Below are positions 26,070 to 30,180 of a DNA stretch of 31,030 nt, piece by piece. Below the pieces are notes generated by a model. It searched no databases, had not been told where the DNA came from, and saw only the letters and a list, made by a program, of their open reading frames with translations. Numbering within the stretch: the first letter of the stretch is position 1; every line of letters begins with the position of its first letter. Position numbers and translations under genes: made by a program. Source of the DNA: a virus; IMG/VR virus record IMGVR_UViG_3300034073_002228, positions 1 through 31,030 of that record; one strand, written 5' to 3'.

Positions 26070-26543
26070 ATGGCAACCATCACCGACCAAAAGGACGAAG
26101 CCATGACCACGATCACCTGGACCGATCTGCGCTTCATCGGCGAAGAGCCGAACCGCTTCGCCATCGCTGGCGACTACACCGTCCACGAGCGCCTCGTTCC
26201 GAAGCCGGGACAGGACATCCGCGACGCTCACATCCGCTTCGACGTGTCGACGCAGATCGATGGCGATGAGGTCATCATCGCCAAGGGCATTTTCTATGAT
26301 GAGGTGATGCGGATCGTGCGCGGCGAGCAGGAGGAGGTCGACACGAACCTGAACGCCTTCGTCCACTCCGACGACTTTGCGACGATCGCGATGACGCCGG
26401 ATCAGTTGGAGATGCTCCGCACGATACTCGACATCGCCAGCGCTGATGAGACGGGCGACGACGAGGAGCGCGAGCAGGTCGCTACGTTCGCGGACGCGCT
26501 GTACCGGACCATCGCCGCCGCGCTCGCGCAGGCGTCCTCGTGA
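26070..26543 (+). CDS. Small early protein B, 157 aa (146 aa from the internal start)
   Basis: After the MATITDQKDEA leader peptide the protein continues MTTITWTDLRFIGEEPNRFA and later has TQIDGDEVIIAKGIFYDEVM, FATIAMTPDQLEMLRTILDI and an acidic stretch DETGDDEERE. I do not recognise it. The ATG at 26070 is six bases from a -10 box; the in-frame ATG at 26103 has AAAGGA in front. The same two-start layout as in the first gene supports dual initiation or one of the two. Its stop overlaps the GTG of the methyltransferase (GTGA), so the two are co-translated. Its job may be linked to DNA modification or to early host control. Confidence 0.8.
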   Translation: MATITDQKDEAMTTITWTDLRFIGEEPNRFAIAGDYTVHERLVPKPGQDIRDAHIRFDVSTQIDGDEVIIAKGIFYDEVMRIVRGEQEEVDTNLNAFVHSDDFATIAMTPDQLEMLRTILDIASADETGDDEEREQVATFADALYRTIAAALAQASS

Positions 26544-27838
26544 CGCTGACGGTCGGCAGCACCTTTACGGGTGTCGGCGGCGCGGACCTCGGCCTGGAAT
26601 GGGCCGGATTCCGCGTCGCCTGGCAATGCGAACTCGACCCGTGGAAGCAGAGCATCCTCCGGGCGCATTGGCCAGACGTGCCGCTGCATGACGACATCAC
26701 GACCCTACGAGACCCAGAACCCGTCGACCTTATGATCGGCGGGTTTCCGTGTCAGGACTTGTCCGTGGCGGGCAAGCGGAAAGGATTCACCGGTGAACGA
26801 TCCGTCCTCGCGTTCGACTTCCTCCGAGTCGCCGAATCTGTTCGACCCCGATGGCTTCTCCTGGAGAACGTACCGGGCCTCCTGTCAAGTAATCGCGGAC
26901 GAGACTTCGCCCGACTCGTCGATGAAGTGGTCGCGCTGGGGTATGGCGTGGGATGGCGGGTGCTCGATGCCCGCTACTTCAACGTCCCGCAGCGCCGCCG
27001 ACGAGTCTTCCTCGTCGCCCATCGAGCCGACCTTGCGGATGATCCTGGAGCCGCGAGTGAGCGAGCGTTACGCGCTCTCCGCGAAAGCGGCAGCGGGGAT
27101 TCTACGCCGGGTTGGCCGCCGCGGACGGACGCTACCGCCGGAGCTAGAGCGGGCGCTGCGCTCGGTGGCGGAGACGCTCTAGGTTTTTACTCGAAGGGCG
27201 GCGCGATGGATGGCTTCGCAAGCTACGGGAATGCTTCTGGTCCGCTCATGCTGACGAATCCGATGGCCGTCTCCTACCGGAAGAGTAAGCGGGCGCAGAC
27301 GGATCAGGATGATGAGTCCTGGGTCGAGGCGGATGAGACGAACACGCTGAACCGGTTCGACACGGGCGACACGCGCGCGACGCAACTAATCGCAGCAACC
27401 CTCACGCGCGGTGGACATCCCAATAGCAACGCGCCAGGGCGTCGGAAAGAGGACGACGTAAATCTCGTCGCGGAGACGGCGAGCACGCTGCAACGAGCGG
27501 GCGGCGAGCGTGGTCAACGCATCGACGCGGAAGGCGCGGCCGGTGGGCATCTGATCCCATTCAACGCCGAGTTTTCCAATCAAGCGCAGCCGGGCGGAGA
27601 TCAGATGCACACGCTCGACAAGAATCCGAACGCGGCGATCGCGTCGGAGATGAGCGTCCGCCGTTTGACTCCGGTCGAGTGCGAGCGGCTCATGGGATGG
27701 CCGGACAACTGGACGGCACCCGAAGGCGTCAAAGCGCCCGACGGGAAGAGGTACGCGGCATGCGGCGACGGGATCGTCTCGTGGGTCGCGTACTGGATCG
27801 GGCAACGTATCCGAATGATCGAGGAGGAGAACCGATGA
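26540..27838 (+). CDS. DNA (cytosine-5) methyltransferase, 432 aa
   Basis: C5 methyltransferase with the motifs in order: SAM site TFTGVGGADLGLEWAGF (motif I), catalytic GGFPCQDLSVAG (Cys71, motif IV), LLLENVPG with Glu109 (motif VI), NVPQRRRRVFLVAH (motif VIII), then a long variable target-recognition part, SVRRLTPVECERLMGWPDNW, and AACGDGIVSWVAYWIGQRI (motif X). It adds methyl groups to cytosine at C5; the target site is not known. GTG start overlaps the previous stop by GTGA. No restriction enzyme is nearby, so it likely protects phage DNA or changes host expression. The part from codon 85 to 214 also encodes another protein in the +1 frame. Confidence 0.95.
   Translation: MTLTVGSTFTGVGGADLGLEWAGFRVAWQCELDPWKQSILRAHWPDVPLHDDITTLRDPEPVDLMIGGFPCQDLSVAGKRKGFTGERSVLAFDFLRVAESVRPRWLLLENVPGLLSSNRGRDFARLVDEVVALGYGVGWRVLDARYFNVPQRRRRVFLVAHRADLADDPGAASERALRALRESGSGDSTPGWPPRTDATAGARAGAALGGGDALGFYSKGGAMDGFASYGNASGPLMLTNPMAVSYRKSKRAQTDQDDESWVEADETNTLNRFDTGDTRATQLIAATLTRGGHPNSNAPGRRKEDDVNLVAETASTLQRAGGERGQRIDAEGAAGGHLIPFNAEFSNQAQPGGDQMHTLDKNPNAAIASEMSVRRLTPVECERLMGWPDNWTAPEGVKAPDGKRYAACGDGIVSWVAYWIGQRIRMIEEENR
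26793..27182 (+). CDS. Nested overlapping gene inside the methyltransferase gene, 129 aa
   Basis: In the +1 frame within the methyltransferase, GTG 26793 opens a frame of 129 codons that stops right after the region of motif VIII. AAAGGA lies 7 nt ahead. The product reads SWRTYRASCQVIADETSPDS, then SMKWSRWGMAWDGGCSMPAT and ends with RYALSAKAAAGILRRVGRRG and TLPPELERALRSVAE. I recall this ending, RY.LS.KA..GILRR...RG..LP..L..AL, and the W.R.GM.WDG.C motif from phage proteins encoded next to cytosine methyltransferases. A chance frame is unlikely to show a full family pattern. Function unknown; a partner of the methyltransferase is plausible. No search was possible. Confidence 0.7.
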   Translation: MNDPSSRSTSSESPNLFDPDGFSWRTYRASCQVIADETSPDSSMKWSRWGMAWDGGCSMPATSTSRSAADESSSSPIEPTLRMILEPRVSERYALSAKAAAGILRRVGRRGRTLPPELERALRSVAETL

Positions 27839-28407: not shown

Positions 28408-28481
28408 GAGTGGTGGCGGCGCGAGCGTCTCCCCTCTCCCCTCCGCTCGCGTCGCCCACCATCACACGAGGAGTAGGGATC

Positions 28482-28946
28482 ATGGATAAGAGTCTGATCG
28501 GAGAGGCACTCGAGAACACGGGCATGACGTACGCGGATCTCGGCACCGCGCTCGGCATCTCGATGGGCACCGTGAACTCGAAGATGTCAGGACGCAGCCG
28601 GTTCACGTACGCGCAGGCCGAGCATCTGCGGCGCGAGTACGGGCGGGAGGGCGCGGCGCTCGTCGAAGCGTCGGAGATGATGTTCCGCGCCATCCAATCG
28701 GGCAGCGCCGAAGAACGCCGGAAGGTGACGGCGAAGGGACGCGCGCAGCTCCTCGAGGATGATGGAGTCGAGGTCGACTACTGGCCGAACGCGGACGGCA
28801 CCGTCACCCACTATGAGGACGGCGAGCCGGGCGAATGGACGATCGACGAGTGGAAGGCACGCTTCGGAATGCCCGGCATGGCGGCGGATCAGCATGGCCG
28901 GATGATGGGCTACTTCACGACCGAACCGGACTACTGCGAAGACTAG
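28482..28946 (+). CDS. XRE-like HTH transcriptional regulator, 154 aa
   Basis: The protein starts MDKSLIGEALENTGMTYADL, followed by GTALGISMGTVNSKMSGRSR, a Cro/C1-type helix-turn-helix at about residues 15-40. The rest has a helix SAEERRKVTAKGRAQLLEDD and a strand-rich C-terminus (YWPNADGTVTHYEDGEPGEW). I start at ATG 28482 with GAGGAG ahead. It stands alone after a hairpin, with its own leader, so it may be expressed independently. In a phage without integrase it could be a lytic regulator or a remnant of a lysogeny switch. Its stop overlaps by four bases the end of the convergent metallophosphoesterase gene. Confidence 0.8.
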   Translation: MDKSLIGEALENTGMTYADLGTALGISMGTVNSKMSGRSRFTYAQAEHLRREYGREGAALVEASEMMFRAIQSGSAEERRKVTAKGRAQLLEDDGVEVDYWPNADGTVTHYEDGEPGEWTIDEWKARFGMPGMAADQHGRMMGYFTTEPDYCED

Positions 28947-29950
28947 TCCAGCCAGAGGACATATTCGGCGGTGACGCGACCATCCCTCGGGTCGATGTAG
29001 TGGAGTCGCTGCGCCGGGCGTCCACGCGAGGCGACGAACTCGCGCGCATACTCGCTGCCGGACTCTAGGCTCGGCGTCATGAAGACGCGCCCACCATTCG
29101 GGAGTTGTAGCGTCATCACCGAATGAAAGTGTCCGAGATATACGTCATCGAACGCTTCGGTGACGCCAGAGCTCCACGCCGTCGACTTCCGCATGATCCC
29201 GAACGCCGGCGTGTTCCCGCCGAACGACTTGACCTGGTCGCCGTGGACGAGGAGGGCGCGGTAGGCGCCGACCTCGATGATGTCGTACCACGAGATCGGG
29301 TCGGGCCAGGAGAGCCGGTCATGCTCGCCGATCTTATCCCTGACGATCCGGTAGAGCACGCGGTCCCAGTTATCGCCGCGCGGATTCTCGCCACGCTTCC
29401 CGATGCGGCCATGATTGCCATTCACCGAGTGAACCGTCACCCGTGAGAAGTGCTCGAGGAGCGTGAGGATCGCTTCCTCGAGGACGTGCGCGGCGGCGAA
29501 GACTTGCTCGAACGTCGTCGAGTCGATCTCATACGCGGCTCCGGGGAATAGGATGCCCTCGACCATATCCCCGCCGAGCATCACGACGATCTCATCGACC
29601 GGATGCGCCGCCCGCTGGATCTCCGTCAGGTGTAACACCTTCTCGACGCTCTTGCGGACGCGCGCCTGCGCGACCGTCGTATCGTAGGATTCCGTAGCCT
29701 TTCCGAGCTGCCAGTCCGTCAAGTGCAACAGGGCGACCTCGGGCTTGCCTTTGCCCGCCCGCCGCTTCGCAGGCTTCGCCGGCTTCACGGTGCCCGTGAT
29801 GAGCGCCGCCTCGCGCGCAGCCTGCTCGACAGCCGCCACCAGATCCGCATCCTTTGACTTCGCCGCCGCGAGTTGGCGCTGCAGCGTCGCCGCGGTCTTC
29901 TCGAGCTCGGCGATGCGCTGCTCGTTCGCGATCTCATCCCTTAGAGACAT
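28943..29950 (-). CDS. Metallophosphoesterase (Mre11/SbcD-like nuclease fold), 335 aa
   Basis: Calcineurin-fold enzyme of 335 residues. After an N-terminal coiled coil (EQRIAELEKTAATLQRQLAA) and a basic linker (KPAKPAKRRAGKGK), the motifs are LLHLTDWQLGK (motif I with D-x-Q instead of the usual D-x-H), MLGGDMVEG, VNGNHGRIG, LLVHGDQVK and YLGHFHSVM. Such proteins are nucleases or phosphatases; in phages they are often DNA exonucleases. A partner ATPase (SbcC) is not found. I start at ATG 29950 because GGAGG lies eight bases ahead; ATG 29956 is too near it. It begins MSLRDEI, the same as the upstream gene. Its 3' end meets the convergent regulator. Confidence 0.88.
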   Translation of the reverse strand: MSLRDEIANEQRIAELEKTAATLQRQLAAAKSKDADLVAAVEQAAREAALITGTVKPAKPAKRRAGKGKPEVALLHLTDWQLGKATESYDTTVAQARVRKSVEKVLHLTEIQRAAHPVDEIVVMLGGDMVEGILFPGAAYEIDSTTFEQVFAAAHVLEEAILTLLEHFSRVTVHSVNGNHGRIGKRGENPRGDNWDRVLYRIVRDKIGEHDRLSWPDPISWYDIIEVGAYRALLVHGDQVKSFGGNTPAFGIMRKSTAWSSGVTEAFDDVYLGHFHSVMTLQLPNGGRVFMTPSLESGSEYAREFVASRGRPAQRLHYIDPRDGRVTAEYVLWLD

Positions 29951-30180
29951 TCGCATTCCCTCCGTCGGTGTCGCGCGACTTGCTTCGCGTTCCTGCCGAG
30001 GTCGTATCCGCGGCCGATTAGCGCGGCCGCGATCGCCTTATGCGTCACCGACTCGTCGTCGAGCACCTCGACGAGTTCGGCCGAATCATCCGCCGGCAAG
30101 TCCTCGAGGATCAGTGCGATGACGCAGCGGCGGGATGGGCGCCGAGTGTTCAGCGCGGTTATTTCATCTCGTAGGCTCAT
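29941..30180 (-). CDS. Small putative DNA-binding protein, 79 aa
   Basis: Begins MSLRDEITALNTRRPSRRCV and continues ALILEDLPADDSAELVEVLD, ESVTHKAIAAALIGRGYDLG and a basic ending NAKQVARHRRRECECL. The pattern LP..D...L...L.D..V....IA..L..RG......V.RHRR..C.C is one I recall from small helix-turn-helix proteins of actinobacteriophages. The start at 30180 has GAGAGG before it. It is encoded between the endolysin and the metallophosphoesterase, overlapping the latter by ten bases. It may regulate or assist the nuclease. The cysteine-rich tip could bind metal. Confidence 0.72.
   Translation of the reverse strand: MSLRDEITALNTRRPSRRCVIALILEDLPADDSAELVEVLDDESVTHKAIAAALIGRGYDLGRNAKQVARHRRRECECL

Follow-up and report, generated by a model that had tools for sequence, protein, structure and literature searches.

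The window, i.e. the whole stretch of DNA analysed, is a 31-kb virus record. It contains a gene for a C5-cytosine DNA methyltransferase (MTase), and a second open reading frame (ORF) is nested in the +1 frame of this gene (Table 1). The MTase ORF was matched to PF00145 in Pfam (E=4.6e-56) and to PHROG 116 (E=3e-85). It was assigned to the C5 MTases on the PF00145 match together with motifs IV (PCQ), VI (ENV) and VIII (QRRRR). Motif IX (RRLTPVECERL) and the C-terminal motif X region are retained in its own frame. The MTase gene has as neighbours a phage exonuclease gene on the minus strand (28943-29956; PHROG 284, E=2e-52) and a gene for a likely transcriptional repressor on the plus strand (28410-28946; PHROG 4583, E=1e-4).

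Table 1. Features of the MTase gene and of the ORF nested in it. Positions are those of the window unless a locus is named.
Feature	Position	Strand	Basis
C5-cytosine DNA MTase (432 aa), whose gene hosts the overlap	26540-27838	+	Pfam, PHROG, AlphaFold
AAAGGA, Shine-Dalgarno-like, 7 nt before GTG 26793	26780-26785	+	sequence, SD scan
Gene nested in the MTase gene (+1 frame), 129 aa	26793-27182	+	translation from GTG to stop; permutation, codon-position and residue-map tests
N-terminal and middle part of the nested product, with predicted disorder (pLDDT 47-65); overlaps MTase motifs VI-VIII	26817-27029	+	per-residue map, AlphaFold
MTase motif VI (ENV), within the shared DNA	26864-26872	+	translation; invariant in the alignment
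MTase motif VIII (QRRRR), within the shared DNA	26990-27004	+	translation; alignment
Nested C-core TLRMILEPRVSERYALSAKAAAGILRRVGRRGRTLPPELERALRSVA, helical hairpin (predicted), strongest nested-frame constraint	27030-27170	+	permutation, codon positions, residue map, AlphaFold
Residues 183-241 of the MTase, with predicted disorder; overlap with the nested C-core over about the first 30	27086-27262	+	AlphaFold pLDDT <50
HNH ORF and 81-aa C-core ORF (Thibault, Constella)	L279 1375-1992 and 1962-2207; L286 1375-1992		

The original prediction had described a 129-aa frame inside the MTase gene with AAAGGA 7 nt before its GTG, and translation confirmed it. In +1, a stop at 26733-26735 precedes the open frame, which begins at 26736. 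All the motifs that had been named were located in the shared DNA, ENV and QRRRR in the MTase frame and WSRWGMAWDGGC and RYALSAKAAAGILRRVGRRGRTLP in the nested frame. A GTG with an AAAGG-type upstream site was also found in the close relatives L170, L171 and L175; both elements, however, are partly dictated by the MTase codons (KRKGF.GER). In many homologues, the scan for Shine-Dalgarno (SD) sequences pointed to SD-linked nested starts, located in two different regions some 175 and some 300 nt from the beginning of the MTase gene. The nested gene belongs to no Pfam or NCBIfam family, and neither an HNH domain nor any other Pfam match was found in its product. The product was matched to PHROG 16143 (E=3.7e-8). 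PDB sequence searches with P0001 and A2 gave no matches.

Both products were modelled with AlphaFold. In the nested product, pLDDT was 47-65 for residues 1-90 and 94-97 for the last 30 residues, where two helices are predicted (97-110 and 116-126). In the MTase, most residues as far as about 165 and at the C-terminus had a pLDDT above 90, and a helix was predicted at 169-180. According to these models the shared DNA would be divided between the two proteins, the folded part of one coinciding mostly with disorder in the other, except for a short common stretch at about 27044-27079. The pair would be an example of two encoded proteins sharing out the same DNA in this way. No significant match to the nested product was found by Foldseek in the PDB; the best match in BFVD was an 81-aa protein of phage Thibault (gp104), with E=1.5e-3.

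Constraint on the nested frame was assessed by synonymous permutation, in which the MTase protein is kept fixed and its codons are shuffled, on the assumption of a uniform codon usage along the gene. The frame might be a by-product, open through high GC and conserved merely via the conservation of the MTase. Its openness in the window is unremarkable: the region was stop-free in 15-22% of the permutations, so that an open frame alone is weak evidence in a GC-rich gene. Permuted MTases also still reached 33 bits on the nested profile (33.0 +/- 6.5 over 2000 permutations, maximum 58.7). The window frame itself, however, scored 109.9 bits on this profile, from which the window had been excluded and whose source loci have MTases at most ~45% identical to that of the window. 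The test was extended to 57 representatives with less than 70% MTase identity. The score of the C-core was above all 100 permutations in 56/56 testable representatives (93 vs 6.6 bits), i.e. permutation abolished its signal, and that of the N-half in 45 of 55 (59 vs 34 bits). In AT-rich homologues, 3-7 stops were expected in the nested frame and none was observed. In a gapless 38-codon alignment of the C-core (55 sequences), nucleotide entropy was 0.85, 0.77 and 1.41 bits at nested positions 1, 2 and 3, which are MTase positions 2, 3 and 1, so that nested third positions vary most. Protein entropy was 1.25 in the nested frame and 2.09 in the MTase frame. A chance or GC-driven ORF is thus refuted for the C-core by the permutation and codon-position tests. 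The by-product reading is possible for the N-half of the window's nested product and very improbable for the nested gene as a whole. Many C-core positions are highly conserved in nucleotides, as could be expected if a DNA or RNA cis element were constrained rather than a protein. Nevertheless, variation tracks the nested codons, with first and second positions near 0.8 bits, and the invariant Arg and Leu residues of the C-core change codon family at the first base, which indicates selection on the protein. The product is also predicted to fold confidently. A cis element can hardly be the explanation.

Substitutions were then counted between the window and L170 at MTase positions 1, 2 and 3. 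The counts were 7/6/28 upstream of the nested gene, 8/5/26 in its N-terminal and middle part and 16/11/10 in the C-core. The shift from position 3 to position 1 in the C-core gave p=0.0013 in Fisher's test; two further pairings in the window lineage gave p=0.0020 and p=0.0003, the three comparisons being overlapping and non-independent. Free substitution thus moves to the nested third position in the C-core. This pattern suggests that the DNA of the N-terminal and middle part is held by the MTase and that of the C-core by the nested protein. The prediction of two constrained proteins in one stretch is supported, with unequal constraint: in the window's own lineage, nested-frame constraint dominates only in the C-core and none was seen in the N-terminal and middle part, although residues are conserved there family-wide. 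At the family level, the residues above permutation expectation are ..SPxSC..DG.L.PSSGRW..SGM...E..TL..SE.P.. and the residue map gives nested Gly at column 26940 in 69% (14% expected), Leu at column 26970 in 84% (19% expected) and Glu at column 26982 in 84% (25% expected). We consider it very likely that the overprinted nested frame is a real gene.

Homologues were searched with tblastn, and 18 phage records were matched by the nested product. The 7 annotated MTase loci checked among these matches all had it in the +1 frame of a CDS with MTase motifs. In L003 and L007, the overlapping CDS is annotated only as hypothetical, yet it carries MTase motifs. Contig scans gave at least 585 viral and at least 284 genome relatives, of which the best 80 of each were kept. 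In total, 170 nested homologues were analysed, and each of them (170/170) shares DNA with a C5 MTase in +1: 164 with a single MTase frame, and the other 6 with broken or duplicated ones. Their hosts or source genomes include Actinomycetota, Pseudomonadota, Acidobacteriota, Bacillota and one Phaeocystidibacter, which we take to be a member of the Bacteroidota. A longer homologue used as query matched 147 phage records, including P1, P7, S. thermophilus, Vibrio and Akkermansia phages and mycobacteriophages. When relatives were recruited by the MTase only, with a query ending at motif VIII, the nested core was present in 79/81 phage-type MTases, always in +1; the query alignment had been built from nested-bearing MTases, so the count does not describe C5 MTases as a whole. 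In 16 bacterial genomes, phage-type MTases had the nested core (weakly in L249, L250 and L269), and it was absent from other C5 MTases, such as Dcm, in the same genomes. As judged by these comparisons, the nested gene is conserved in several hundred phage and prophage MTase genes from very different bacteria.

The homologues called for by the original prediction are therefore present, and the +1 frame of homologous MTases stays open rather than being broken by stops. The earlier placing of such proteins beside phage MTases has to be corrected: they are encoded inside them, and no stand-alone homologue outside an MTase was found among the 170 recovered by the nested-product search. It was rightly anticipated that the nested gene is usually missed by annotation. 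It has been annotated only sporadically (PHROG 16143, Thibault gp104), and no description of it was found in the open-licence literature searched, an absence of little weight. PHROG 16143 (139 aa, labelled 'DNA methyltransferase') corresponds to the nested product in the short form that occurs in Streptococcus phages. An example is P0092_45 of S. thermophilus phage P0092, which lies within the MTase CDS, has been annotated as a separate CDS and matches this family with E=6e-85. The label is misleading, since no MTase domain was matched. The short form also stops short of the second core helix. Short-form products of two loci (L282 1818-2237 and L003 1749-2252) end shortly past KY[FY]LS, without the second core helix; in their MTases, QNRERVF or QSRERVY replaces QRRRR. 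In the dmt gene of phage P1 (AF234172.1; L280 2219-2707), the nested frame opens at 66710 and closes with a stop whose last base is 67201; all P1-like loci read have it open as well. A start candidate in P1 is the ATG at 66728 with GGAG upstream. The presence of the nested gene in P1 dmt makes the age and frequency of long same-strand overlaps in prokaryotic viruses testable in a standard laboratory phage.

In phage ShiLan, an HNH endonuclease is hidden out of frame in a DNA methylase gene (PMC11855218). The nested gene is similar in being an out-of-frame protein gene concealed within a phage DNA methylase gene. However, the ShiLan element is a mobile insertion, lies in the third frame and encodes an HNH nuclease, whereas the nested gene is in +1, is not an insertion and has no HNH match. 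It is also common to nearly all phage-type relatives (79/81), whereas a ShiLan-type insertion would be expected to be absent from close relatives. In Thibault and Constella, a ShiLan-type HNH ORF inside the MTase gene lies between the upstream part and the C-core, which survives as an 81-aa ORF (gp104 in the Thibault annotation).

A likeness that goes beyond what had been proposed for this locus was found between the C-core and a segment of other MTases. In canonical C5 MTases without the nested frame, motif VIII is followed in frame by KLGHILDSNVDEKYTISDKLWAGHQRRK (L300), with a counterpart in L253 (Dcm). The pattern of this Dcm/HpaII-like segment is DILE..V..KYtLS.KLW.GHQRRK. The C-core has a similar residue pattern at the same position after motif VIII and a profile similarity far above that of shuffled profiles, but it lies in the +1 frame, whereas the segment is in frame within one polypeptide. 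With hhalign, the nested core was aligned to the segment with a score of 31.6 and a probability of 85%, over a short length (~32 columns) and with a small in-frame set drawn mainly from one search; 100 column-shuffled controls scored 8.1 +/- 2.0 (maximum 13.9). One row of the in-frame alignment (L263) is a spurious regular-expression match, and the probability was 76% for an earlier set without it. The best local match of the nested profile in L300, L324, L299 and L296 is the post-motif-VIII segment. The in-frame segment was found in 0/266 nested-bearing MTases and the nested core in 0/14 MTases with the segment. About 30 other C5 MTases had neither the nested core nor a recognisable segment; C5 MTases in general can therefore do without it. 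At the sequence level, then, the C-core resembles a Dcm/HpaII-like segment that is absent in frame from nested-bearing MTases. A tree was built from the N-terminal parts of 83 MTases, and one large group in it comprises 38 of the 41 nested-bearing rows; three short-form rows adjoin the in-frame clade, and at least 4-5 label changes are needed. The tree would fit either one origin of the nested gene with losses or two origins.

The genes of EcoHK31I overlap in different frames. M.EcoHK31I and M.AquI are C5 MTases split over two polypeptides, the smaller of which carries a conserved MTase piece (PMC3404938). The locus studied here is similar in that the main ORF lacks a segment which occurs in frame in other MTases and which the small product contains (266 vs 14 MTases with no overlap, the in-frame set being small). 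The pieces are different: the small subunit of M.EcoHK31I carries motif IX and that of M.AquI motifs IX-X, whereas the window MTase ORF keeps both IX and X and its nested product carries only the post-motif-VIII segment. The window MTase is thus not of this type, in which the main ORF is without IX or IX-X.

Two further explanations were weighed for the way in which the nested frame is expressed and used. A +1 ribosomal frameshift from the MTase could give a truncated MTase (motifs I-VIII followed by the C-core) and no separate protein. Since the C-core matches what follows motif VIII in canonical MTases, the shifted product would look canonical up to there. It would then end before motifs IX-X and lack both; moreover, nested residues are conserved above expectation far upstream of the C-core, and SD-linked starts occur at two places in many homologues, which favours independent initiation. 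Expression by frameshift only is disfavoured by this upstream conservation and these starts, and we regard it as improbable. The nested gene could also be real and its product act apart from the MTase, as a small basic DNA- or protein-binding factor (a regulator, an anti-restriction or a replication-linked protein). The C-core is indeed a small, basic helical hairpin without a significant fold match in the PDB, and a beta-clamp-like motif, Q[LMI].[LIM]F, follows the SD-linked start in 10/57 homologues (0.03 expected by permutation, the motif having been picked post hoc). On the other hand, this motif was found in 0/20 loci of an independent set and is absent from the window product, no homologue was found outside an MTase, and the similarity to the segment points toward an MTase function. 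A role apart from the MTase is rather doubtful. Nested N-termini with beta-clamp-like motifs (QLSLF, QMNLF, QLGLF and similar) were seen in L136, L124, L162, L166, L097, L004 and L126.

The best explanation, with a probability of about 0.6, is that of an overprinted gene which probably supplies an MTase segment in trans. Because the C-core is the counterpart of a segment absent from the main ORF, its most likely job is that of a small MTase subunit; we give this mechanism an even chance. By frame relocation, the post-motif-VIII segment would have been shifted into the +1 frame. The nested product would probably be translated separately from its own SD and GTG on the mRNA of the MTase. Its disordered N-half would be tolerated within the DNA for MTase motifs VI-VIII, and its folded C-core would be the out-of-frame counterpart of the DILE..V..KY.LS.KLW.. 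segment. Made alongside the MTase, the product may dock between the catalytic and target-recognition domains. The docked C-core would provide the segment in trans, and this may be needed for DNA binding or methylation or may tune them. Whether, in the C5 MTases of phages and prophages of several phyla, an ancestral piece was moved to +1 and retained as a small subunit is about evenly balanced in our judgement. If so, few overprinted pairs in prokaryotic viruses would be as widespread and as well conserved as this frame-relocated subunit and its MTase, which occur even in P1, and phage C5 MTases produced from recoded or codon-optimised genes would be without their partner.

Some loci differed in the arrangement of the two frames. 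The 'DNA methylase' CDS of Lucky2013 (L001 1676-2515 and 2481-2876) ends at 279 aa, before motifs IX-X; the remainder may have been lost or may sit in the small genes that come after it. In a Firmicutes metagenome-assembled genome (L139 3542-5338), a single 600-aa ORF carries MTase motifs I-VI, then the nested core and then motif IX, with motif VIII in another frame. This may be a frame-swapped or twice-shifted variant or an assembly error. L155 and L156 lie at opposite ends of one Bifidobacterium moukalabense contig and are near-copies in which the MTase is broken across frames and the nested core is intact.
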